Made by a program: the position numbers and the translations under genes. Source: Sphingomonadales bacterium (GTDB lineage: Bacteria > Pseudomonadota > Alphaproteobacteria > Sphingomonadales > Sphingomonadaceae). From it: a stretch of 64,000 nucleotides of DNA. The stretch spans positions 62,001 to 126,000 of the forward strand of contig JAIXOE010000053.1 in assembly GCA_027486895.1 (NCBI GenBank), in the 5' to 3' direction. A model generated the notes under the pieces. That model had not been told where the DNA came from, did no database searches, and saw nothing but the letters and a program-made list of their open reading frames with translations. The number at the start of each line of letters is the position of its first letter. The stretch's first letter is position 1. This document shows, one piece after another, positions 50,953-63,959 of this stretch.

Positions 50953-50988
50953 GATGTCCGACTCGAAAATGTCGAGAAGGATGTGAAC

Positions 50989-51615
50989 ATGCCAGACAGT
51001 TGCTGCGAGAGCGCGTGCGGGAGCGAGACGGCCAAGGCCGACCCGCGCTGGCGGCGCGTTCTGTGGGCGGCACTTATCGTCAATGCGGGCATGTTTTTGG
51101 TCGAAATGGCTGCGGGTGCTGTGGCTGATAGCCGAGCGCTCCAGGCCGATGCACTCGACTTTCTGGACGATGCGGCCAATTATGCCGTCAGCCTTGCCGT
51201 CGTCGGTGCGACCCTGGCATGGCGGGCGCGAACAGCCTTGCTTAAATCGCTTTTCATGCTCGGATTTGCGGGCTGGGTGTTCACCAGCGCGATCCTCGCT
51301 TTTGTGAATGGCACATCGCCGGATCCTGCCATGATGGGCGCCATCGGTGCGCTGGCGCTTACTGCAAACGTCGGCGTCGCTTTGCTACTTTACCGTTACC
51401 GGAAGGGCGATGCCAATATGCGCTCGGTCTGGATATGCTCGCGAAATGACGCCATCGGCAATATCGCGGTGATGCTGGCGGCATTGGGGGTACTGGGCAC
51501 GGGTAGCGCGTGGCCTGACCTGATTGTCGCAACGATCATGGCTTCACTGGCACTTACCGGCGGCATTCAGGTCTTTCGCCAGGCAATATCCGAATTGCGA
51601 ACGGTTGCCGCATGA
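50989..51615 (+). CDS. CDF-like cation transporter
   Basis: 208 residues from the ATG at 50989 with GAGAAGGA upstream. Cys-rich N-terminus (M-P-D-S-C-C-E-S-A-C-G). Six helices of the cation diffusion facilitator fold: helix 2 has A-D-A-L-D-F-L-D-D-A-A-N-Y, where classical CDFs have H/D-x3-D, and helix 5 has C-S-R-N-D-A-I-G-N-I-A. It lacks the C-terminal cytosolic domain of CzcD. Exports divalent metal from the cytoplasm. First gene of the MerR-controlled operon; ends in a 4-bp overlap with the next gene. Confidence 0.88.
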   Translation: MPDSCCESACGSETAKADPRWRRVLWAALIVNAGMFLVEMAAGAVADSRALQADALDFLDDAANYAVSLAVVGATLAWRARTALLKSLFMLGFAGWVFTSAILAFVNGTSPDPAMMGAIGALALTANVGVALLLYRYRKGDANMRSVWICSRNDAIGNIAVMLAALGVLGTGSAWPDLIVATIMASLALTGGIQVFRQAISELRTVAA

Positions 51616-52403
51616 AAGTGTCGCGCTCAACGATAATCGACCTTTCGGCGGAGATCGTTTGGTCACAGGTGCAAGCTGCGCGGCTGCTGGATCATATAGC
51701 GTGGCCGCTGATGCGTTTCATTCCCGTTGGCAGCGAACCGCTTGCACATTTCAAGCAGGGGGGACGGTATCTGGTCAAACTGAGGCTGCTCGGGATGTTG
51801 CCCGTCGGCACGCAATGGATCGCAACCTCTGTTCACCAGCCAGAGCGCGGCGCATGGCCAAAGCGGCTGCGCGACAACGGTTATAGCGCGCTGATCAAAA
51901 AGTGGGACCACTGGATCACAATTTCGCCATTTGGTAAAGACCGCACTCGCTATAGCGATGATATCGAAATATCGGCTGGAATTATGACGCCCTTCATATG
52001 GGCATTTGCGTATGTATTTTATTGGCACCGTCAGCGCCGGTGGCGTGGTCTTGCGCGATCCATGCAAGCGCGCAACGTAATCGCAGAGGAAATGGAAGTT
52101 TTCTCACAGGCCAATGCCTTGGGGGATACGGCCAAAGCATGGCGTGCGCTCGAACGTGCACATATTGTTTCCCAACCCTTTCTCGGGCCGCATCTTTCCA
52201 GTCATTGGGCGATGCTTCGATTTGCGATCAGCCAAAGGGATGCACGCGAAATGGCAGGGCAGATATTCCGCCTGGCCTTGGCACCGCTTGGCGCGATTTC
52301 GGGACGGATACCGGCAGGAAACACCGGCAGGGCCAACGTTAGCGCATTCCAGCCAATGGACATTCCGCCGGACTTGCGGGCCAAGCTGCGGGGAGAAAAC
52401 TGA
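51612..52403 (+). CDS. SRPBCC-like domain fused to DUF3703
   Basis: 263 residues, ATG overlapping the CDF stop. N-terminal about 150 residues resemble a SRPBCC/polyketide-cyclase-like fold (S-R-S-T-I-I-D-L-S-A-E-I-V-W-S-Q-V, then R-T-R-Y-S-D-D-I-E-I-S-A-G, F-Y-W-H-R-Q-R-R-W). From about 160, the DUF3703 domain is clear: A-W-R-A-L-E-R-A-H-I-V-S-Q-P, H-W-A-M-L-R-F-A-I, G-N-T-G-R-A-N-V-S-A-F-Q-P-M-D-I-P. DUF3703 is a small domain normally alone, usually beside metal transporter genes. The fusion and the absence of a signal peptide suggest a cytosolic ligand- or lipid-binding helper. Function unknown. Confidence 0.8.
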   Translation: MKVSRSTIIDLSAEIVWSQVQAARLLDHIAWPLMRFIPVGSEPLAHFKQGGRYLVKLRLLGMLPVGTQWIATSVHQPERGAWPKRLRDNGYSALIKKWDHWITISPFGKDRTRYSDDIEISAGIMTPFIWAFAYVFYWHRQRRWRGLARSMQARNVIAEEMEVFSQANALGDTAKAWRALERAHIVSQPFLGPHLSSHWAMLRFAISQRDAREMAGQIFRLALAPLGAISGRIPAGNTGRANVSAFQPMDIPPDLRAKLRGEN

Positions 52404-52793
52404 ATGATTGTACGATTGCGCATCAACAAAGCTAATGCTACGTGGGGCAATATGCAGGGCAAAATCATTTCCCTATTTCTGGTTTTCGCCTTGTTATTTG
52501 GCACGGTAATCATGCCGACGGTTGCCCACGCCCAGGCTGCGTCCGCTTCACATGCCGAAGAGTTTCTGGACATTCACGAGCTTGACAGTGACGCGGGTCA
52601 GGATACGCGTGACGACGATGACGAAAAACCCTGCCATGCAGTCACCCATCATCATTGCAGTTTTGCCTTAAGGGTTGATGCGCCGTCGGGGACCATGACA
52701 TTGGTCGCGGCGCAAAACAGCTTTATAGCCGGTCTGCATGCCGCGATGGCTTCGCTTTCGCAGGCACCGCCCACAGAACCCCCCGCCGCCTGA
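52404..52793 (+). CDS. Small exported His-rich protein ahead of czcC, copy 1
   Basis: 129 residues (ATG 52404 with GGGGAG 8 bp upstream; ATG 52452 is an alternative giving 113 residues). Signal peptide (I-S-L-F-L-V-F-A-L-L-F-G-T-V-I-M-P-T-V-A-H-A-Q). Mature part is acidic (D-S-D-A-G-Q-D-T-R-D-D-D-D-E) with a His cluster in C-H-A-V-T-H-H-H-C. It ends S-Q-A-P-P-T-E-P-P-A-A. The same ending occurs in the protein before the second czcC gene while the rest differs. Candidate periplasmic metal chaperone and/or a regulatory leader: its stop codon lies inside the stem that hides the czcC ribosome site. Confidence 0.8.
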   Translation: MIVRLRINKANATWGNMQGKIISLFLVFALLFGTVIMPTVAHAQAASASHAEEFLDIHELDSDAGQDTRDDDDEKPCHAVTHHHCSFALRVDAPSGTMTLVAAQNSFIAGLHAAMASLSQAPPTEPPAA

Positions 52794-52851
52794 ACCTGCT
52801 GCTTTGCAGGGGCGCACGAGTGCGCCCTTGCCTGTGACAATGGTTCAGGAG
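52789..52851 (+). promoter_or_regulatory. RNA stem masking the czcC ribosome site, copy 1
   Basis: CCTGAACC (52789-52796) contains the TGA stop of the upstream gene and pairs perfectly with GGTTCAGG (52842-52849), whose AGG is part of the czcC Shine-Dalgarno AGGAG (52847-52851). Between the arms lie two further hairpins, CCTGC/GCAGG and GGGCGCAC/GTGCGCCC. A ribosome at the end of the upstream frame would cover the 5' arm and free the ribosome site. The same outer stem occurs in copy 2 at 62651-62713. Confidence 0.75.
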
Positions 52852-52861
52852 TTTCATCATC

Positions 52862-54070
52862 ATGTTTATATCTTTGCGTGCAGCCTGTTTGGCGGGCGCG
52901 CTTGTGGCAACCGGCTCGACCGTCAATGCCGAACCCATCACGCTATCGGATGCACTTAAATCGGCAGTCGGAAGTTCCCCTCGCGTTACGCAGGCGAAGG
53001 CTCTGGCCGAAGCCGCCGAAGCACGTGCCCGTCAGGCAGGTGTTTCGCCTAATCCCGAACTGAGCTTGGAAGTCGAGAATTTTGCTGGCAGCGGCGTATT
53101 TCAGGGGCTTCGCAGTACCGAAGCTACATTGGCGCTCAGCCAGCGGTTGGAATTAGGCGGCAAGCGAAGTGCGCGGGTGGAAGTTGCTCGCGCCGAGCGG
53201 GATTTTGCATTTCTTTCCTACAAAGCGGCATTAGCTGATCTGGATCGCGAAATCCGTCTGGCGCATGCGGAGCTTCGCGCTGACGAAGACCGGGCGATAT
53301 TGGCCCGCGATAATACGGCATCAGCCGAAGAACTTGCAAGGACGGCCAGAATATTGGTCGACGCGGGACGTGAACCGCCGCTTCGCCAGCTCCGCGCCGA
53401 AGCCGCCTTGGCCGAAGCAAAAGCGGAACAGGCGCGCACGTTCGGCGAGCTGTTGAGTTCGCGTCGCCTGCTCGCGGCGCTAATTTGGAGTGACGACCCG
53501 GAACTCTCGGCTACATTTGCAGAGGAAGCGGCACCTGCCAATGTGCCGGTAGAAGCGCCAACGCTGAACGAGCAGCTTGCGATTGCACAAAAAAATGCTG
53601 CTCTGGCACGAGTGAGACTGGCTCGGGCAAACGCAATTCCGGACATTACGGCAAGCGGTGGCGTCAGACGATTTGCCGAAGGCCGCGAAACCGCAATGGT
53701 CGCCGGGGTTTCGATTTCCCTGCCGTTTCGTGACAGAAATCGCGGCACCATCGAGGCCTCGCAATCGGAAAGCCTAGCAGCTGAGGCAGCGGCGATGCTT
53801 GCCCGGAACGAAGCTAACCGGGCGCGGTATGATGCAAGAATGCTCCTTGGCGCTGCCGAATTGCGTTACGAAGCCTTGGCAGGCCTCGGCATTTCACAAG
53901 CTGAGGAAGCGCTGCGGCTGGCCCAGATTGGATATAACGCTGGCAAATTCTCACTGCTCGAATTGCTCGATGCACGAAATGCGCTGAATGCCGCCAGGCT
54001 CAACCTCATCCAGGCGCGATTTGACCGTGCCGAAGCGCTCGCCGCGCTGATCCGCGCCAACGCGCTGTAA
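52862..54070 (+). CDS. czcC: CzcC-like outer membrane metal-efflux protein
   Basis: 402 residues, signal peptide (C-L-A-G-A-L-V-A-T-G-S-T-V-N-A). TolC-family trimeric duct of heavy-metal RND pumps: E-P-I-T-L-S-D-A-L-K-S-A, G-V-S-P-N-P-E-L-S-L-E-V-E-N-F-A-G-S-G, Q-R-L-E-L-G-G-K-R-S-A-R. Translation probably depends on the upstream gene because of the stem in the leader. Followed by czcB after 11 bp. Confidence 0.93.
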   Translation: MFISLRAACLAGALVATGSTVNAEPITLSDALKSAVGSSPRVTQAKALAEAAEARARQAGVSPNPELSLEVENFAGSGVFQGLRSTEATLALSQRLELGGKRSARVEVARAERDFAFLSYKAALADLDREIRLAHAELRADEDRAILARDNTASAEELARTARILVDAGREPPLRQLRAEAALAEAKAEQARTFGELLSSRRLLAALIWSDDPELSATFAEEAAPANVPVEAPTLNEQLAIAQKNAALARVRLARANAIPDITASGGVRRFAEGRETAMVAGVSISLPFRDRNRGTIEASQSESLAAEAAAMLARNEANRARYDARMLLGAAELRYEALAGLGISQAEEALRLAQIGYNAGKFSLLELLDARNALNAARLNLIQARFDRAEALAALIRANAL

Positions 54071-54081
54071 AGGACAATCTT

Positions 54082-55251
54082 ATGGAAACCGAAACTAACA
54101 AAAACAAAGTGATTGCAGGAGCGGCTGTAGCTGCGCTCGTGCTTGGCGGTGGTGGTGTGATGCTTGGTCGCACGATGTTTGCTCCGGCACCGACGACTGC
54201 CGTTGCTGCTGCACCTGCCAAAGAGGACGGCCATGTAGAAGGCCAGATCCTGATGGACACAGCGCGCGCAAAGGCTGCCGGGATTGTCACCGAAGCGTTG
54301 CAATCCGGCGGGCTGGGAGCGGAAATTCTGGCGCAAGGCGTTGTCGCCTCGACTCCCGAAGGCGAGGCTGTGCTGACCGCACGCGCCGATGGAGCCGTCG
54401 TTCGCATCAACCGTCAACTGGGTGACTTCGTCCGGGCAGGTGAAGCGGTGGCGGTGATGGAAAGCCGTGACGCGGCATCGATCGCCGCAGAACGCAGTTC
54501 GGCGTCGGCCCGGCTAGCGTTGGCGCGTTCAACCTATGCGCGCGAGAAGAAGCTCTTCGATGCCAAGGTTACCGCGCGGCAAGACCTTGAAGGTGCACAA
54601 GCGGTATTGGCAGAAGCTGAAGCCGAGGCACGGCGTTCACAATCTGCGGCCTCAGCTGCCAAAGTGTCTGGCGATGGCCGAACCCTGGGCGTTGTCAGTC
54701 TGATTTCGGGCCGCGTGACTAAGGCCGACGCCAAACTTGGCTCTTATGTGCTTGCTGGCACCGAACTGTTCCGCGTATCCGACCCCAATCGCATCCAGAT
54801 CAACGCGTCGGTGCTCGCTGCCGATGCGCGCAGGATAAAGCCTGGCGATACTGCGGTTATCGAGCTTCTGGGTGGAGAGACCGTTGACGCGGTTGTCCGA
54901 TCAGCCACACCCAGCCTCGATCCGGAAAGCAAAACCGCAACGATAGTGCTTACGCCGCAAGGCATCGGTGGCCTTACGCCTGGCCAAGGCTTGCGCGCGC
55001 GGATCAAACCGCGCGGAGGCGGCGACACTGGTTTGATCGCTTTGCCTGAAGAAGCGGTTCAAACTGTTGAAGGCAAGGAGGTCGTTTTCGTTAAAACTGC
55101 GAAGGGCTTCCAGGCGACAACCGTTGTTACCGGCAAACGCGGCGGGGGTCGCATCGAGATTGTCGATGGTCTGAAACCGGGGGCAATCATCGCGACCAAG
55201 GGCGCGTTCCTGCTCAAAGCCGAACTCGGCAAGGGTGAGGCGGAGCATTGA
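54082..55251 (+). CDS. czcB: CzcB-like periplasmic adaptor
   Basis: 389 residues. N-terminal membrane anchor (V-I-A-G-A-A-V-A-A-L-V-L-G-G-G-G-V-M-L), then the adaptor order: lipoyl half (D-G-A-V-V-R-I-N-R-Q-L-G-D-F-V-R-A-G), helical hairpin (about 135-195), barrel (F-R-V-S-D-P-N-R-I-Q-I-N-A), and membrane-proximal domain (G-L-I-A-L-P-E-E-A-V-Q-T-V-E-G-K-E-V-V-F-V). The short acidic/His stretch K-E-D-G-H-V-E-G at the start of the mature part replaces the His-rich CzcB extension. Links CzcA to CzcC. Confidence 0.93.
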   Translation: METETNKNKVIAGAAVAALVLGGGGVMLGRTMFAPAPTTAVAAAPAKEDGHVEGQILMDTARAKAAGIVTEALQSGGLGAEILAQGVVASTPEGEAVLTARADGAVVRINRQLGDFVRAGEAVAVMESRDAASIAAERSSASARLALARSTYAREKKLFDAKVTARQDLEGAQAVLAEAEAEARRSQSAASAAKVSGDGRTLGVVSLISGRVTKADAKLGSYVLAGTELFRVSDPNRIQINASVLAADARRIKPGDTAVIELLGGETVDAVVRSATPSLDPESKTATIVLTPQGIGGLTPGQGLRARIKPRGGGDTGLIALPEEAVQTVEGKEVVFVKTAKGFQATTVVTGKRGGGRIEIVDGLKPGAIIATKGAFLLKAELGKGEAEH

Positions 55252-55252
55252 T

Positions 55253-58200
55253 ATGATCGACAAACTCTTAGACGCGTCGATCCGCTTCCGCTGGGCGGTG
55301 GTTTTGCTGACGCTAATCATATCCGCTTACGGTCTGTCGGAGCTTTTGAAGCTGCCAATCGATGCTGTGCCCGATATCACCAACAAACAGGTCCAGATCA
55401 ACACCGTCGAGCCAAATCTGGGTCCACTCGACATCGAACGGCTCGTGACTTTTCCGGTTGAAACCGCGATGGCGGGGATACCGGGGCTTGAAACCTCACG
55501 TTCGATCTCGCGCAACGGGTTCAGTCAGGTCACGGTGATATTCGAGGATAACACCGATCTCTATTTTGCCCGCCAGCAGGTAGCAGAACGGCTCAATCAG
55601 GCCAAAGGTACGTTACCTGAGGGCGCTGAGCCGCAAATGGGTCCGGTATCAACGGGGCTTGGCGAAGTGCTGATGTACACCGTTGATTATTCCCGGGCTG
55701 GAACCAAGGAAAATCCAAAGGTTGCAGGCAAGCCGGGTTTTCAGCCCGACGGGTCGTACCTAACGCCGACCGGCGAAACCCTGACCGATGATGTAGCCAA
55801 GCTCGGCTATCTGCGGACCATACAGGATTGGGTTATTCGTCCGCAACTTCGCTCGGTATCGGGTGTTGCCGGAATCGACTCTATCGGCGGCTATGAAAAG
55901 CAATTTGTTGTGCAACCGGATGCCTCCAAACTTGCCACCTACGGCATATCCTTTTCTGAGCTCGCTGAGGCGCTTGAGCGCGCTAATATCTCGGTTGGCG
56001 CGAACTTTGTCGAACGCGGCGGCGAAGCCTTTCTGGTCCGGGCCGATGGCCGCATCCGGACGGTCGATGAAATATCCCGCGCTACCGTCGCAAGCCGTGG
56101 CGGCGTTCCGGTCATGGTTGGAGATGTTGCCACGGTCCAGATTGGCGGCGAATTGCGCACTGGTTCGGCGTCGGAAAATGGCAAGGAACTGGTTGTTGGA
56201 ACCGTCCTGATGCTTGCGAACGGCAATAGCCGGCTCGTGGCCCAGGCAGCGGCCGAACGGCTTACCGAGGTCGCCAAGTCAATGCCGCCGGGGATCGTCG
56301 TTAAGCCGGTGTTGAACCGTTCAGAACTGGTCGACGCCACAATTGGCACCGTCGAGAAGAATTTGGCCGAAGGCGCATTGCTGGTGGCTGCTGTCCTGTT
56401 CTGGCTGCTGGGTAACTTTCGCGCCGCCATCATTGCCACGCTGGTTATTCCAATTTCGTTCCTGATGATGGCGATGGGTATGAACGCGACGGGCACACCA
56501 GGCAATCTGATGAGTCTTGGCGCGCTCGATTTCGGTTTGATCGTCGACGGTTCGATCATCATTATTGAAAACTGTTTGAGACGTCTTGCCGAACGACAGC
56601 ATCATGAAGGCCGAATGTTGACCGTCACGGAGCGATTGCACGAGGTGTTCGAAGCCTCGCGCGAAATGGTCAAACCGACAATTTACGGGCAGGCCATCAT
56701 TTTCCTCGTGTTCGTGCCGCTGCTGACCTTTACCGGCGTCGAGGGCAAAACCTTCTCGCCGATGGCGATTACGGTAATGCTGGCACTGGGCGGCGCGTTT
56801 ATCGCGTCGCTTACTTTCGTGCCAGCAATGGTTGCATTGCTCATCCGCGGCGAGGTCGCCGAGAAAGACGTCAAGGCCATTGCATGGGTCAAGACCCGCT
56901 ATAAGCCAGTGCTGCAACGGGTCATTGCCCGTCCATGGCCATGGATCGGTGCGGGCGGCGGAACCTTTGCCGCAGCAGCACTTGTATTCACCATGCTGGG
57001 CAGCGAGTTCATACCGGTATTGGGTGAAGGCAATCTGGCCATGCAGGCCCTGCGCATTCCATCCACATCGCTGAAAAAGTCTCAGGACATGCAACTTCAG
57101 GTCGAAAAAGCGGTGTCTGTTTTGCCGGAAGTTGCTTTCATCTACTCCAAAACCGGCACCGCAGAAGTTGCCAGTGACCCAATGCCGCCGAACGCGTCGG
57201 ATACTTTCATCATTTTGAAACCGCGCGACGCATGGCCTGACGGGGTCGATACCAAGGACGAGGTAATCGAAAGGGTCGAAAAGGCATTGGCACCACTTGT
57301 TGGCAACGCTTTTGAGATCAGCCAGCCCATTCAGCTGCGTTTTAACGAATTGATCGCCGGTGTTCGCGGCGATGTCGCGATCAAAATCTATGGTGACAAT
57401 CTCGATGAAATGGGCCGGACCGCAAATCAGGTGGCAGCCATTATCGGAACTGTACCCGGTGCTGCAGACGTCAAGGTTGAACAAACCGCGGGTTTTCCGG
57501 TTCTTGACGTCCAGTTCGACCGTAATGCTATCGCGCGCTACGGCCTAACGCTTCAGGATGTCAGCGATACAGTAGCTGCAGCACTCGGTGGGCGCGAGGC
57601 GGGTATCGTGTTCGAAGGGGACCGGCGCTTCGACATTGTGGTCCGGCTCGACGGGGCGACGAGAGATGATCTCGACGCGGTAGGTGCACTTCCTGTGCTG
57701 CTGCCCGGCGAAGGCGGCGCTCGCGCTTCGGTGCCGCTGAGTGAGTTGGCCAAGTTTGGCTTCTCTGAAGGTCTCAACCAGGTCAGCCGCGAAAACGGCC
57801 AGCGCCGTGTCGTGGTGCAAGCCAATGTCCGCGGTAACGATCTGGGATCGTTTGTTGCCGAAGCACAGGAGAAAGTGAACGCGCAAGTGAAACTGCCAAC
57901 TGGCAGCTTCATCGAATGGGGCGGTCAGTTTGAAAATCTGCAAGCGGCCTCAGCGCGCTTGTCGATTGTCATCCCGATCATCTTTGCCGCCATCTTCGGA
58001 ATCCTGTTCATGGCGTTAGGCGGTGTACGGCAAGCGATTGCGGTTTATTCCGCAATTCCCTTGGCGCTGGCAGGCGGTGTCTTCGCACTCCTACTCACGG
58101 GGCTTCCATTCTCGGTCTCGGCAGCGGTTGGCTTCATCGTGCTTTCGGGTGTGACGGTGCTCAATGGCCTTGTTGTGATGTCCAGTATCAATCAGCGGAT

Positions 58201-58534
58201 CGACGAAGGCAAACCGATCGACACGGCGATCAGCGAAGGGACAATGGAGCGTGTTCGTGCGGTCCTGATGACCGGTATTGTTCCCGCGATTGGTTTTGTA
58301 CCGATGGCGATCGCAACCGGAACCGGAGCCGAAGTACAAAAGCCCCTCGCAATCGTCGTGATCGGCGGGTTGATTACATCGACTTTGCTGACGTTGTTCG
58401 TGTTACCCGCCATCAGTCACTTGCTGCTGCGTGGTCGCCACAAGCGGCATATTGCTGGCGATTACAGCGATGTGACAGCGTTGGGCGAGCGCACATTTGA
58501 AAGCAGTGATCCTAAAGGCGCTGAGCCGGCATGA
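55253..58534 (+). CDS. czcA: Heavy-metal RND efflux permease (CzcA-like)
   Basis: 1093 residues from the ATG at 55253, 1 bp after the czcB stop. HME-RND features: P-I-D-A-V-P-D-I-T-N-K-Q-V-Q-I-N-T-V at the N-terminus, and in helix IV G-L-I-V-D-G-S-I-I-I-I-E-N, the D/E proton-relay signature of heavy-metal exporters, which differs from the DD pair of drug-type pumps such as the one at 10.9 kb. An insert of about 40 residues (Y-S-R-A-G-T-K-E-N-P-K) follows the first porter subdomain. Exports divalent cations (Zn, Cd, Co) from periplasm or cytosol by proton antiport. Exact metal not determinable from sequence. Confidence 0.94.
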   Translation: MIDKLLDASIRFRWAVVLLTLIISAYGLSELLKLPIDAVPDITNKQVQINTVEPNLGPLDIERLVTFPVETAMAGIPGLETSRSISRNGFSQVTVIFEDNTDLYFARQQVAERLNQAKGTLPEGAEPQMGPVSTGLGEVLMYTVDYSRAGTKENPKVAGKPGFQPDGSYLTPTGETLTDDVAKLGYLRTIQDWVIRPQLRSVSGVAGIDSIGGYEKQFVVQPDASKLATYGISFSELAEALERANISVGANFVERGGEAFLVRADGRIRTVDEISRATVASRGGVPVMVGDVATVQIGGELRTGSASENGKELVVGTVLMLANGNSRLVAQAAAERLTEVAKSMPPGIVVKPVLNRSELVDATIGTVEKNLAEGALLVAAVLFWLLGNFRAAIIATLVIPISFLMMAMGMNATGTPGNLMSLGALDFGLIVDGSIIIIENCLRRLAERQHHEGRMLTVTERLHEVFEASREMVKPTIYGQAIIFLVFVPLLTFTGVEGKTFSPMAITVMLALGGAFIASLTFVPAMVALLIRGEVAEKDVKAIAWVKTRYKPVLQRVIARPWPWIGAGGGTFAAAALVFTMLGSEFIPVLGEGNLAMQALRIPSTSLKKSQDMQLQVEKAVSVLPEVAFIYSKTGTAEVASDPMPPNASDTFIILKPRDAWPDGVDTKDEVIERVEKALAPLVGNAFEISQPIQLRFNELIAGVRGDVAIKIYGDNLDEMGRTANQVAAIIGTVPGAADVKVEQTAGFPVLDVQFDRNAIARYGLTLQDVSDTVAAALGGREAGIVFEGDRRFDIVVRLDGATRDDLDAVGALPVLLPGEGGARASVPLSELAKFGFSEGLNQVSRENGQRRVVVQANVRGNDLGSFVAEAQEKVNAQVKLPTGSFIEWGGQFENLQAASARLSIVIPIIFAAIFGILFMALGGVRQAIAVYSAIPLALAGGVFALLLTGLPFSVSAAVGFIVLSGVTVLNGLVVMSSINQRIDEGKPIDTAISEGTMERVRAVLMTGIVPAIGFVPMAIATGTGAEVQKPLAIVVIGGLITSTLLTLFVLPAISHLLLRGRHKRHIAGDYSDVTALGERTFESSDPKGAEPA

Positions 58535-62322: not shown

Positions 62323-62655
62323 ATGCGTTGGGTGATGTCTCTTGTTCTTGGTTTAGCGCTCGTCGCGGGGATGTCTCACGCCCCGGCAATGGCGCATCCC
62401 GAGGATGCACATGCACATTCGTCAGGCGAGATTTCGGCTTTTGAAGCAGCATCGGAAGATCATCTTCGAGACAGCCAGTCTTCACCAGGCAATGCCGAAA
62501 GCAATGCCCACTCTCATCTGCCACCGGTGCTTGCAACGGTTCATGACAGTCTTTTCGGAAGCGCGTTTGTTTCCAATAAGCAATTTCTGTTCGTGAAGAC
62601 CGACGTGCTGACCTCTTTCAGTCAGGCGCCACCCACGGAACCACCCTCGGCCTGA
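62323..62655 (+). CDS. Small exported His-rich protein ahead of czcC, copy 2
   Basis: 110 residues. Signal peptide (V-M-S-L-V-L-G-L-A-L-V-A-G-M-S-H-A-P-A-M-A). Mature part starts with a His-rich run (H-P-E-D-A-H-A-H-S-S-G), is acidic, with N-A-H-S-H-L-P in the middle, and ends F-S-Q-A-P-P-T-E-P-P-S-A. Homology to copy 1 is only clear at the tail. Its TGA lies in the stem before the second czcC gene. Like copy 1 it could buffer metal and report its own translation to the efflux gene. Confidence 0.8.
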   Translation: MRWVMSLVLGLALVAGMSHAPAMAHPEDAHAHSSGEISAFEAASEDHLRDSQSSPGNAESNAHSHLPPVLATVHDSLFGSAFVSNKQFLFVKTDVLTSFSQAPPTEPPSA

Positions 62656-62713
62656 ACCGCGCCATGAGGGCGGGCCGCGCGCCCGGCCCTTGAATGCGTC
62701 CACGGTTCAGGAG
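62651..62713 (+). promoter_or_regulatory. RNA stem masking the czcC ribosome site, copy 2
   Basis: CCTGAACC (62651-62658) with the upstream TGA at 62653-62655 pairs perfectly with GGTTCAGG (62704-62711), overlapping AGGAG (62709-62713) of the second czcC gene. The enclosed GC-rich hairpin (about 62666-62690) differs in sequence from that of copy 1, while arm sequence and total length (63 nt from arm to the end of the ribosome site) are the same. Confidence 0.75.
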
Positions 62714-62720
62714 TTTTAAC

Positions 62721-63959
62721 ATGTTTCCCAAATTGCGCACCGCCTTGCTGGCGGCGGCGCTGGCCTGTCCGGCTACGGCTACGTTCGCGGAGCCGATCAC
62801 GCTGGATGAGGCCATTGCCAAGGCGGTTGACGCCGCCCCATTAATTCGCGCCAGCGAGGCAGCGATCGCCGCTGCGCGTGCCGGTCGCGTTCAAGCTGGC
62901 GTTCGGCCCAATCCAACCGTTACTGTCGAAGGCGAAAACCTTATCGGCAGCGGACCCTATAATGTGTTTGGCCAAGCCGAGGTCACCGGCACTTATAGCC
63001 AGACGATCGAGCGAGGCGGCAAACGCGACGCCCGCGTCGCCTATGCGGAACGTGACATTGGCGTTGCTGAAGCATCTTCACGGGTCGCACGGCTCGAATT
63101 GGTGAGTGCCGTGCAGCGTGCGTTTCTTGATGTTGTGATCGCCGGTTACGTCGTCGAGATTGCAGAAACGCGACTGGGGGTCGAAGTTGAAATGCAGCGC
63201 GAAGCTTTAAGGCGTGTGCGCGGATATAAAGACCCTCTGTTTGTCGAGACGAGCGCATCGGCGCGGGTAACACAAGCGCGGCTCAATCTGACCGAGGCAC
63301 AGGCGCGCCAGCACGGCGCGCGCGCAGCGCTTGCCGCATATTGGCAGGGCAGCGCCGAGGATGTAGAGCCCGTCGGCGAAGTCTTGTCAGGTATCCCGGC
63401 CGCACGGGAACTCAGCATTGCCGATGACGAACTGGCAAAGGCCGAAGCCGCGCGGGCGTCGGCAGCCGTGACGGTCGAACAGACGCGGGCGCGACCTGAC
63501 TACACAGTTAATGGAGGCGCGCGTTTCCTGCGCGGCACCAACGACGTGGCGCTGGTCGCAGGGATCACTATTCCGCTCGGCAGGTTCGACCGCAATCAAG
63601 GCAATATCGCGAAGGCGCAGGCGGAAAAATTGCGGATCGAACTGACAGCAGAAGCCCTGCGGCTCGACCGGCTTCGCCGCCTGGCGAGCCTTGGCGCGGA
63701 GGCCGATGCCGCCCGTGCGCGTGCCGACGCCATTGTCCGCGAGGTGTATCCGCAGACCACCATGGCACTCCGCCAAGTGCGCGATGGTTATGCGCGCGGT
63801 GGCTTCACCTTCCGGGATATGCAGGGTGCCGCCGATGCGATCATCCAGGCGCAGGCCGAATGGCTTAATGCGGTAACGCGCTATCGTGACCTTCAAACCG
63901 AAATCGACCGGCTGACCGGGCGCTTTGACGCCGCAGCGGAAAAGGGGATCAATCCATGA
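62721..63959 (+). CDS. CzcC-like outer membrane metal-efflux protein, second copy
   Basis: 412 residues from the ATG at 62721 with AGGAG 7 bp upstream. Signal peptide (L-L-A-A-A-L-A-C-P-A-T-A-T-F-A). TolC family: E-P-I-T-L-D-E-A-I-A-K-A-V-D-A-A-P, G-V-R-P-N-P-T-V-T-V-E-G-E-N-L-I-G-S-G, Q-T-I-E-R-G-G-K-R-D-A-R. Clearly related to the 52.9-kb copy but diverged, so the second system may serve a different metal. Overlaps the next gene by 4 bp (ATGA). Confidence 0.93.
   Translation: MFPKLRTALLAAALACPATATFAEPITLDEAIAKAVDAAPLIRASEAAIAAARAGRVQAGVRPNPTVTVEGENLIGSGPYNVFGQAEVTGTYSQTIERGGKRDARVAYAERDIGVAEASSRVARLELVSAVQRAFLDVVIAGYVVEIAETRLGVEVEMQREALRRVRGYKDPLFVETSASARVTQARLNLTEAQARQHGARAALAAYWQGSAEDVEPVGEVLSGIPAARELSIADDELAKAEAARASAAVTVEQTRARPDYTVNGGARFLRGTNDVALVAGITIPLGRFDRNQGNIAKAQAEKLRIELTAEALRLDRLRRLASLGAEADAARARADAIVREVYPQTTMALRQVRDGYARGGFTFRDMQGAADAIIQAQAEWLNAVTRYRDLQTEIDRLTGRFDAAAEKGINP

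Follow-up and report, generated by a model that had tools for sequence, protein, structure and literature searches.

Organization of the czc Loci

The window, by which we mean the whole stretch of 64,000 nucleotides that was analysed, contains two loci at which a small open reading frame precedes a gene for a czcC-type outer membrane efflux protein (OEP), all on the forward strand. At locus 1 the ORF listing and its translation give a protein of 129 aa, here called leader 1 (52404–52793; an alternative in-frame start ATG at 52452 stands nearer the signal-peptide-like stretch). It is followed after 68 nt by the first czcC gene (52862–54070), its proposed target, and then by czcB (54082–55251) and czcA (55235–58534), which together span 54082–58534. 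Leader 1 carries a His/Cys box, HHHC (residues 82–85, 52647–52658), 41 residues ahead of its last Pro-Pro, and ends in the tail APPTEPPAA (52764–52790; last Pro-Pro at 52779–52784). At locus 2, leader 2 (62323–62655, 110 aa) ends in APPTEPPSA and stands 65 nt before the second czcC-type OEP gene (62721–63959), again the proposed target; the AGGAG found there fits a start at ATG 62721 and not the listed frame start at 62694.

The initial annotation had reported that one perfect pair of arms, CCTGAACC and GGTTCAGG, encloses 45 nt at each of the two loci, with the TGA of the small ORF inside the 5′ arm and part of the czcC AGGAG inside the 3′ arm, and that the inner sequences are unlike while arms, spacing and position agree. 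All of this was borne out at both loci, and none of 100 shuffled windows contained such a pair. The 5′ arm of locus 1 (52789–52796) includes the stop TGA at 52791–52793, the inner hairpin (52806–52831) differs in sequence from the other loci, and the 3′ arm (52842–52849) overlaps the ribosome site AGGAG at 52847–52851. The second stem (62651–62711) has its arms at 62651–62658 and 62704–62711, with the TGA at 62653–62655 and AGGAG at 62709–62713. The genome contains a third czcC gene with this layout, though its inner sequence differs (stem G000:C17:59345-59406). The observation is therefore real and broader than first described.

The leader 1 ATG directly follows the stop codon of a DUF3703 gene. 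The gene order CDF-type, DUF3703, leader is common to leader 1 (50983–52862 of the window), the third copy (L001) and a Novosphingobium plasmid (L262, 2942–4410).

Distribution of the Leader in the Family

A profile built from the three CzcC proteins found matches in at least 140 of 298 genomes of the organism's own family. Upstream DNA was examined for 133 of the matches listed (the window loci, L001, L005, 29 search loci and 100 fetched stretches), and in 124 of these 133 czcC-type loci a small PP-tailed ORF precedes the OEP start, ending 51–80 nt short of it (median 63.5). Its stop codon is TGA in 121 loci, TAG in two and TAA in one. The tail classes include APPxxPPxA, LKRPPRA, TPPPRx, LIQPPKA, FRPPIA and GPERPPK with further residues. 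Nine loci have no leader within 260 nt: four (L101, L113, L115, L119) have a PP-tailed frame further upstream, L050 has a box and no tail, and L052, L055, L128 and L135 have neither. The frame of L052 was judged spurious and that of L116 was placed by hand. As shown by comparison of these loci, an ORF that begins with a hydrophobic stretch, carries a His/Cys box and a spacer of nearly constant length but unconserved sequence, and ends in a PPxx-stop tail precedes czcC-type genes across most of the sampled family.

In the class-level scan outside the family a PP-tailed frame was found at six of eight OEP loci (the frame of L265 was judged spurious and L269 has none). Among the matches listed in an exact arm-pattern scan of genome contigs, most were chance ones; 10 of 119 loci have a PP-tailed frame that terminates at the stop, and five of these ten (L145, L160, L186, L203, L239) precede a czcC-like start, as judged by eye. 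For the RNA model R1 specificity requires a score above about 30 bits. The ten listed R1 loci that score at least 31.8 bits, which are mostly training rows or near copies, all have a leader frame, with an OEP gene recognized by script in nine and separately in the tenth (L275); the 28 lower-scoring loci include one genuine case (L292) and one with a spurious frame (L307).

Several variants stood out. A Pro-Pro placed 6–7 residues before the stop was seen in L082, L120, L127, L129, L131, L133, L134, L136, L140 and L142, with an HHHH-type box about 44–45 residues before the Pro-Pro where scored, and L134 and L140 use TAG. L270 has an LKRPPRVFA leader ending in TAA, and its GGGCAAAA/TTTTGCCC stem lies a long way from the OEP start, possibly a different architecture. 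L227, a Dehalococcoidia MAG from an unrelated phylum, has a 205-aa frame ending in PPLDQPPRA at the pattern's stop and an exported-looking protein next; this frame is possibly due to chance. A tblastn search of plasmids with leader 1 matched one record. On Novosphingobium sp. ES2-1 plasmid p3 (L262, 4004–4871) an APPTEPPAA leader and a CCTGAAAT/ATTTCAGG stem stand before another hypothetical gene, with a TolC gene next, so that the module would govern whichever gene stands first.

Structure of the Leader Proteins

Ahead of all counts L014, L004 and L010 were dropped, as they duplicate W2, L015 and L013. For quantitative comparison the 124 loci were reduced to 68 non-redundant ones at no more than 80% identity. 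The three small proteins of the genome have little in common beyond the tail SQAPPTEPP[AS]A. Of the changes between leaders 1 and 2 in the 11 tail codons, five are synonymous and one is a replacement, and this mostly synonymous divergence indicates that it is the protein sequence of the tail that is maintained. The last Pro-Pro is followed by exactly two residues (PPxx-stop) in 57 of the 68 loci.

By the rule that three of five residues be His or Cys, a box is present in 58 of 68 loci and absent in 10, leader 2 among the latter; its degenerate HSH (about 62509–62517, by arithmetic on the translation) stands 42 residues before the last Pro-Pro. The distance from box to last Pro-Pro is 39–42 residues in 49 of the 58 boxed loci and in 48 of the 50 that also have PPxx-stop. 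The only invariant positions of an 18-row alignment are a single His of the box and three prolines of the tail, and identity averages 0.67 over the box, 0.30 over the spacer and 0.82 over the tail. A crude hydrophobicity rule recognizes a hydrophobic N-terminus in 55 of 68 loci.

The structure model of leader 1 has a mean pLDDT of 61.6. Its confident part is a signal-peptide-like N-terminal helix; values rise to 78 in the tail block and stay near 50 over residues 41–120, so that the mature part is predicted to be largely without confident structure. A near-fixed distance kept over an unconserved spacer fits a ruler within a nascent chain better than it fits a folded periplasmic protein.

Covariation of the RNA Stem

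A fold with an outer stem round a GC-rich inner hairpin was obtained at both loci of the window. Compared with shuffled sequences its stability is moderate at locus 1 (z −2.28; 8 of 200 shuffles equally good) but not notable at locus 2 (z −1.04; 30 of 200). The third copy (z −3.74) and six further relatives (z −2.03 to −5.00) fold in the same way.

Across relatives the arms are kept as pairs and not as letters, and the outcome that would have refuted the initial annotation, arms that are not conserved in related loci, was not observed. Over the 68 non-redundant loci, arms paired with their own partner have a mean energy of −14.53 kcal/mol, against −10.85 (sd 0.28) when partners are swapped between loci; swapping thus costs 3.7 kcal/mol, and none of 2000 permutations reached the own-partner value. 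When the 5′ segment was shifted as a control, the energies were −8.91 vs −8.45 swapped at −15 (51 of 2000) and −9.72 vs −9.49 at −30 (420 of 2000); at +15, which falls in the inner hairpin, the swap test was significant too.

In an anchored count the registers were set by TGA and TCAGGA, with complementarity not used. In the 36 loci of this count, positions +1, +2, +3 and +4 past the stop are paired in 29, 31, 27 and 20, with shuffled means of 40, 43, 38 and 33%; the observed numbers were reached in 0, 0, 0 and 1 of 1000 shuffles, and compensatory changes occur at all four pairs. The 12 TCAG-only loci, in which the ribosome site mostly lies outside the stem, gave no significant covariation in this count, and 20 of the 68 loci were not countable. 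Alignment A3 (33 loci; L042, L109 and L130 excluded as out of register) has a covariation score of 0.272, against 0.059 (sd 0.017) when shuffled (0 of 500) and at most 0.061 with slid partners. Its first pair past the stop is A-U in 11 loci, C-G in 11, U-A in seven and other in four, the five outer pairs are invariant and hence uninformative on covariation, and RNAalifold predicts the same helix. Alignment A4 was made with L092 and L114 excluded.

In 67 of 68 loci the final sense codon has C as its third base, although the residue varies (A, V, T, I, S, G, D or R); the same base is found in 37, 21 and 14 loci at codons −2, −6 and −8. A C that is kept whatever the residue points to a constraint on the RNA within the reading frame. 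Comparison shows the leader stop codon paired within a covarying stem whose other arm is, or adjoins, the czcC ribosome site. In view of the covariation over the family the stem is more than a product of chance, and there is good support for it as well as for the leader family. The downstream ribosome site is shielded by the stem, as in the CutF–cutO mechanism, most clearly where TCAGGA carries that site; at some loci the ribosome site stands outside the stem.

Several other explanations of the arms were rejected. Chance origin is ruled out by the window shuffles, the arm swaps, the anchored count and the covariation score. Neither stem has a terminator-like site, as an intrinsic terminator would, and no Rfam family matches in the window at gathering threshold. 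A riboswitch aptamer appears unlikely, because what is kept is the pairing of the arms, and the inner sequences vary from one locus to the next.

Ribosome Position and Access to the czcC Ribosome Site

A ribosome covers about 15–16 nt of mRNA ahead of its P-site. With this footprint, a ribosome on the last Pro-Pro covers the stop codon and most of the 5′ arm, and one on the upstream Pro-Pro does not reach the stem. Mean computed access of the ribosome site over 67 loci is 0.19 in free RNA (0.25 with the middle shuffled) and 0.21 with the P-site at −27, and rises to 0.36, 0.35 and 0.37 at −12, −9 and −3. Over 33 loci it is 0.25 free, 0.26 at −27, 0.30 at −18, 0.46 at −15 and 0.35–0.37 from −12 to −3. 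With a ribosome on the last Pro-Pro of leader 1 access increases from 0.29 to 0.55–0.59; at leader 2 it falls from 0.37 to 0.24 when the 5′ arm is covered.

The initial annotation had supposed that translation of an exported small protein through its stop opens the czcC stem, and the arm covariation, the C of the last codon and the PPxx-stop geometry support this. Such opening need not involve more than plain translational coupling, in which ribosomes finishing the small gene would open the stem in passing, with neither arrest nor metal sensing, and the small protein would have a separate periplasmic task. A stop codon inside the stem is sufficient for it, and the mean gain in access, which is moderate only, is equal for a terminating ribosome (0.36) and one on the last Pro-Pro (0.35–0.37; 33 loci), so that the calculation cannot tell a stalled ribosome from a terminating one. 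Coupling of this kind leaves unexplained, however, why Pro-Pro stands two residues before the stop, why the box keeps a near-fixed distance over an unconserved spacer, and why CutF has a matching layout; we regard it as rather unlikely.

Comparison With Known Leaders

The layout is closest to that of CutF–cutO in Rhodobacter capsulatus, in which a small leader, exported by the Sec route, carries a metal box about 42 residues ahead of its last Pro-Pro and ends in PPxx-stop, and a stem in the short intergenic region hides the ribosome site of the next gene. The present leaders share these features, their own Sec export being putative. CutF has the box C69xxHC73 and the end P109EPEGPPPRL118 (PMC8456105); by our own count on that sequence 42 residues separate C73 from the last Pro-Pro, and two residues follow. 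It is described as acting in cis, as needing translation and export, and as required only while the stem over the cutO ribosome site is intact (PMC9973294). The same source reports that the CutF tail by itself does not stall a reporter, and arrest by CutF or CruR was undemonstrated as of PMC10987492. A survey in PMC9973294 lists 5,334 CutF-like proteins with OEP genes as their commonest neighbours, and CutF-like leaders before OEP genes are therefore already known as a class; that study and a review (PMC10502375) already suggest that such leaders may sense other metals, the review speaking of potentially other heavy metals. Leaders 1 and 2 both fall within its CutF-like filter (<150 aa, PP within the last 15 residues). 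Unlike CutF with its CxxxC Cys motif, leader 1 has HHHC, leader 2 HSH and the family mostly HHHC or HGHCHH, though the survey itself admits Cys/His variants (PMC9973294). Here, moreover, the target is a czcC-type OEP gene of a divalent-type pump, and the placement of the stop codon itself within the stem is stated for the present loci only.

The likeness to SecM–secA seen in the initial annotation holds formally: in SecM and RAPP-type arrest leaders, too, a ribosome stalled on an exported leader holds a stem off the next ribosome site, but their arrest sequence is different, secretion is the signal and sec genes are the targets (PMC10987492). The SecM motif FxxxxWIxxxxGIRAGP (PMC10987492) is absent from the translations and no secA lies downstream. 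The initial annotation had left secretion and metal state side by side as signals; with CutF–cutO, which it did not name, as the closer precedent (PMC9973294), metal is the likelier and secretion the less likely. We conclude that the leader is neither a SecM nor a new kind, and that the earlier interpretation as a whole is partly supported. No description of the mechanism or RNA stem of a czc or czr leader was found in the open-licence literature searched, supplements aside.

A protein acting in trans on the pump, with the stem setting dosage only, is quite improbable. CzcI of Cupriavidus metallidurans, a small periplasmic protein, is encoded in the equal position immediately upstream of czcC and is reported to quench CzcCBA, as a proposed pump quencher acting as a protein (PMC10127602). 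It is reported to be without a C-terminal proline motif or Pro-Pro tail (PMC9973294), and the mature part of the present leaders has little sequence conservation and no confident fold. Control of Rho-dependent termination between leader and czcC by stalling on the tail, in place of access to the ribosome site, is very improbable: CruR–bfrG of Bordetella pertussis, a DUF2946 leader with a CXXC metal box, about 45 residues and a PP-type tail (RAPP) near the C-terminus, does work through Rho (PMC9426467), and leader 1 weakly matches DUF2946 (PF11162; 17.6 bits, below the cut-off of 23.7; leader 2 unmatched), but the CruR gap is long (162 nt vs 51–80 nt here), copper there represses import genes, which would be the wrong sense for an efflux pump, and in the present loci the stop-codon arm pairs with the ribosome site. 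The signal peptide of CruR is dispensable.

Proposed Mechanism and Metal

In our view the small gene is likely to encode a cis-acting regulatory leader of the CutF type. In the absence of metal the ribosome would finish the leader and depart, and the stem would shut over the czcC ribosome site. If a divalent metal is present in the periplasm, probably Zn, Cd or Co, the box would bind it while emerging from the Sec channel. The ribosome would then linger on the Pro-Pro tail and cover the 5′ arm, and the open stem would allow CzcC to be translated. Both the arrest and the metal response are what we infer, and the direction, in which metal turns czcC on, is taken from CutF. Locus 2 speaks against a CutF-type leader: its fold is like that of shuffles, its box is degenerate and its access falls when the arm is covered.

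The signal of the leader is probably a divalent metal. CzcA matches ZneA more closely (633.8 bits) than CusA (565.9 bits), and at the positions that we take to be those of the CusA methionine triad it has Q, A and E, by eye on the alignment. The genes next along are nearest to ZntA-type ATPases and ZitB-type CDF proteins, with scores below the cut-offs of those models, and a gene for a MerR-type regulator lies upstream. In Caulobacter crescentus czrCBA is required for growth with added zinc or cadmium and is activated by Zur with zinc; CC2720, annotated as DUF2946, is the first gene of this zinc/cadmium RND operon, with zntA downstream (PMC4176598). The likeness of CC2720 comes from annotation, and the account in PMC4176598 is of Zur/zinc transcriptional activation only. 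The nearness of CzcA to ZneA, the neighbouring genes and Caulobacter czrCBA together make a divalent metal likelier than copper.

Somewhat more tentatively, the leaders may form a family-wide nascent-chain sensor of periplasmic Zn, Cd or Co, whose box, 39–42 residues from the terminal Pro-Pro, would read the metal at the Sec channel while the ribosome stands on the stop-codon arm, efflux thus being set at translation; we hold this possible, at a little under an even chance. If this is true, such a sensor would for the first time be shown for a transition metal besides copper, the CutF-like leaders studied so far being those on copper genes (PMC9973294, PMC8456105). The family offers a widespread group of leaders in front of divalent-metal pumps, with an RNA partner backed by covariation, and as box, spacing, PPxx-stop and stem can be altered separately, the reading of periplasmic metal by a nascent chain becomes directly testable. 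It may also mean a translational layer in czc/czr efflux, which the literature consulted describes as transcriptionally controlled.
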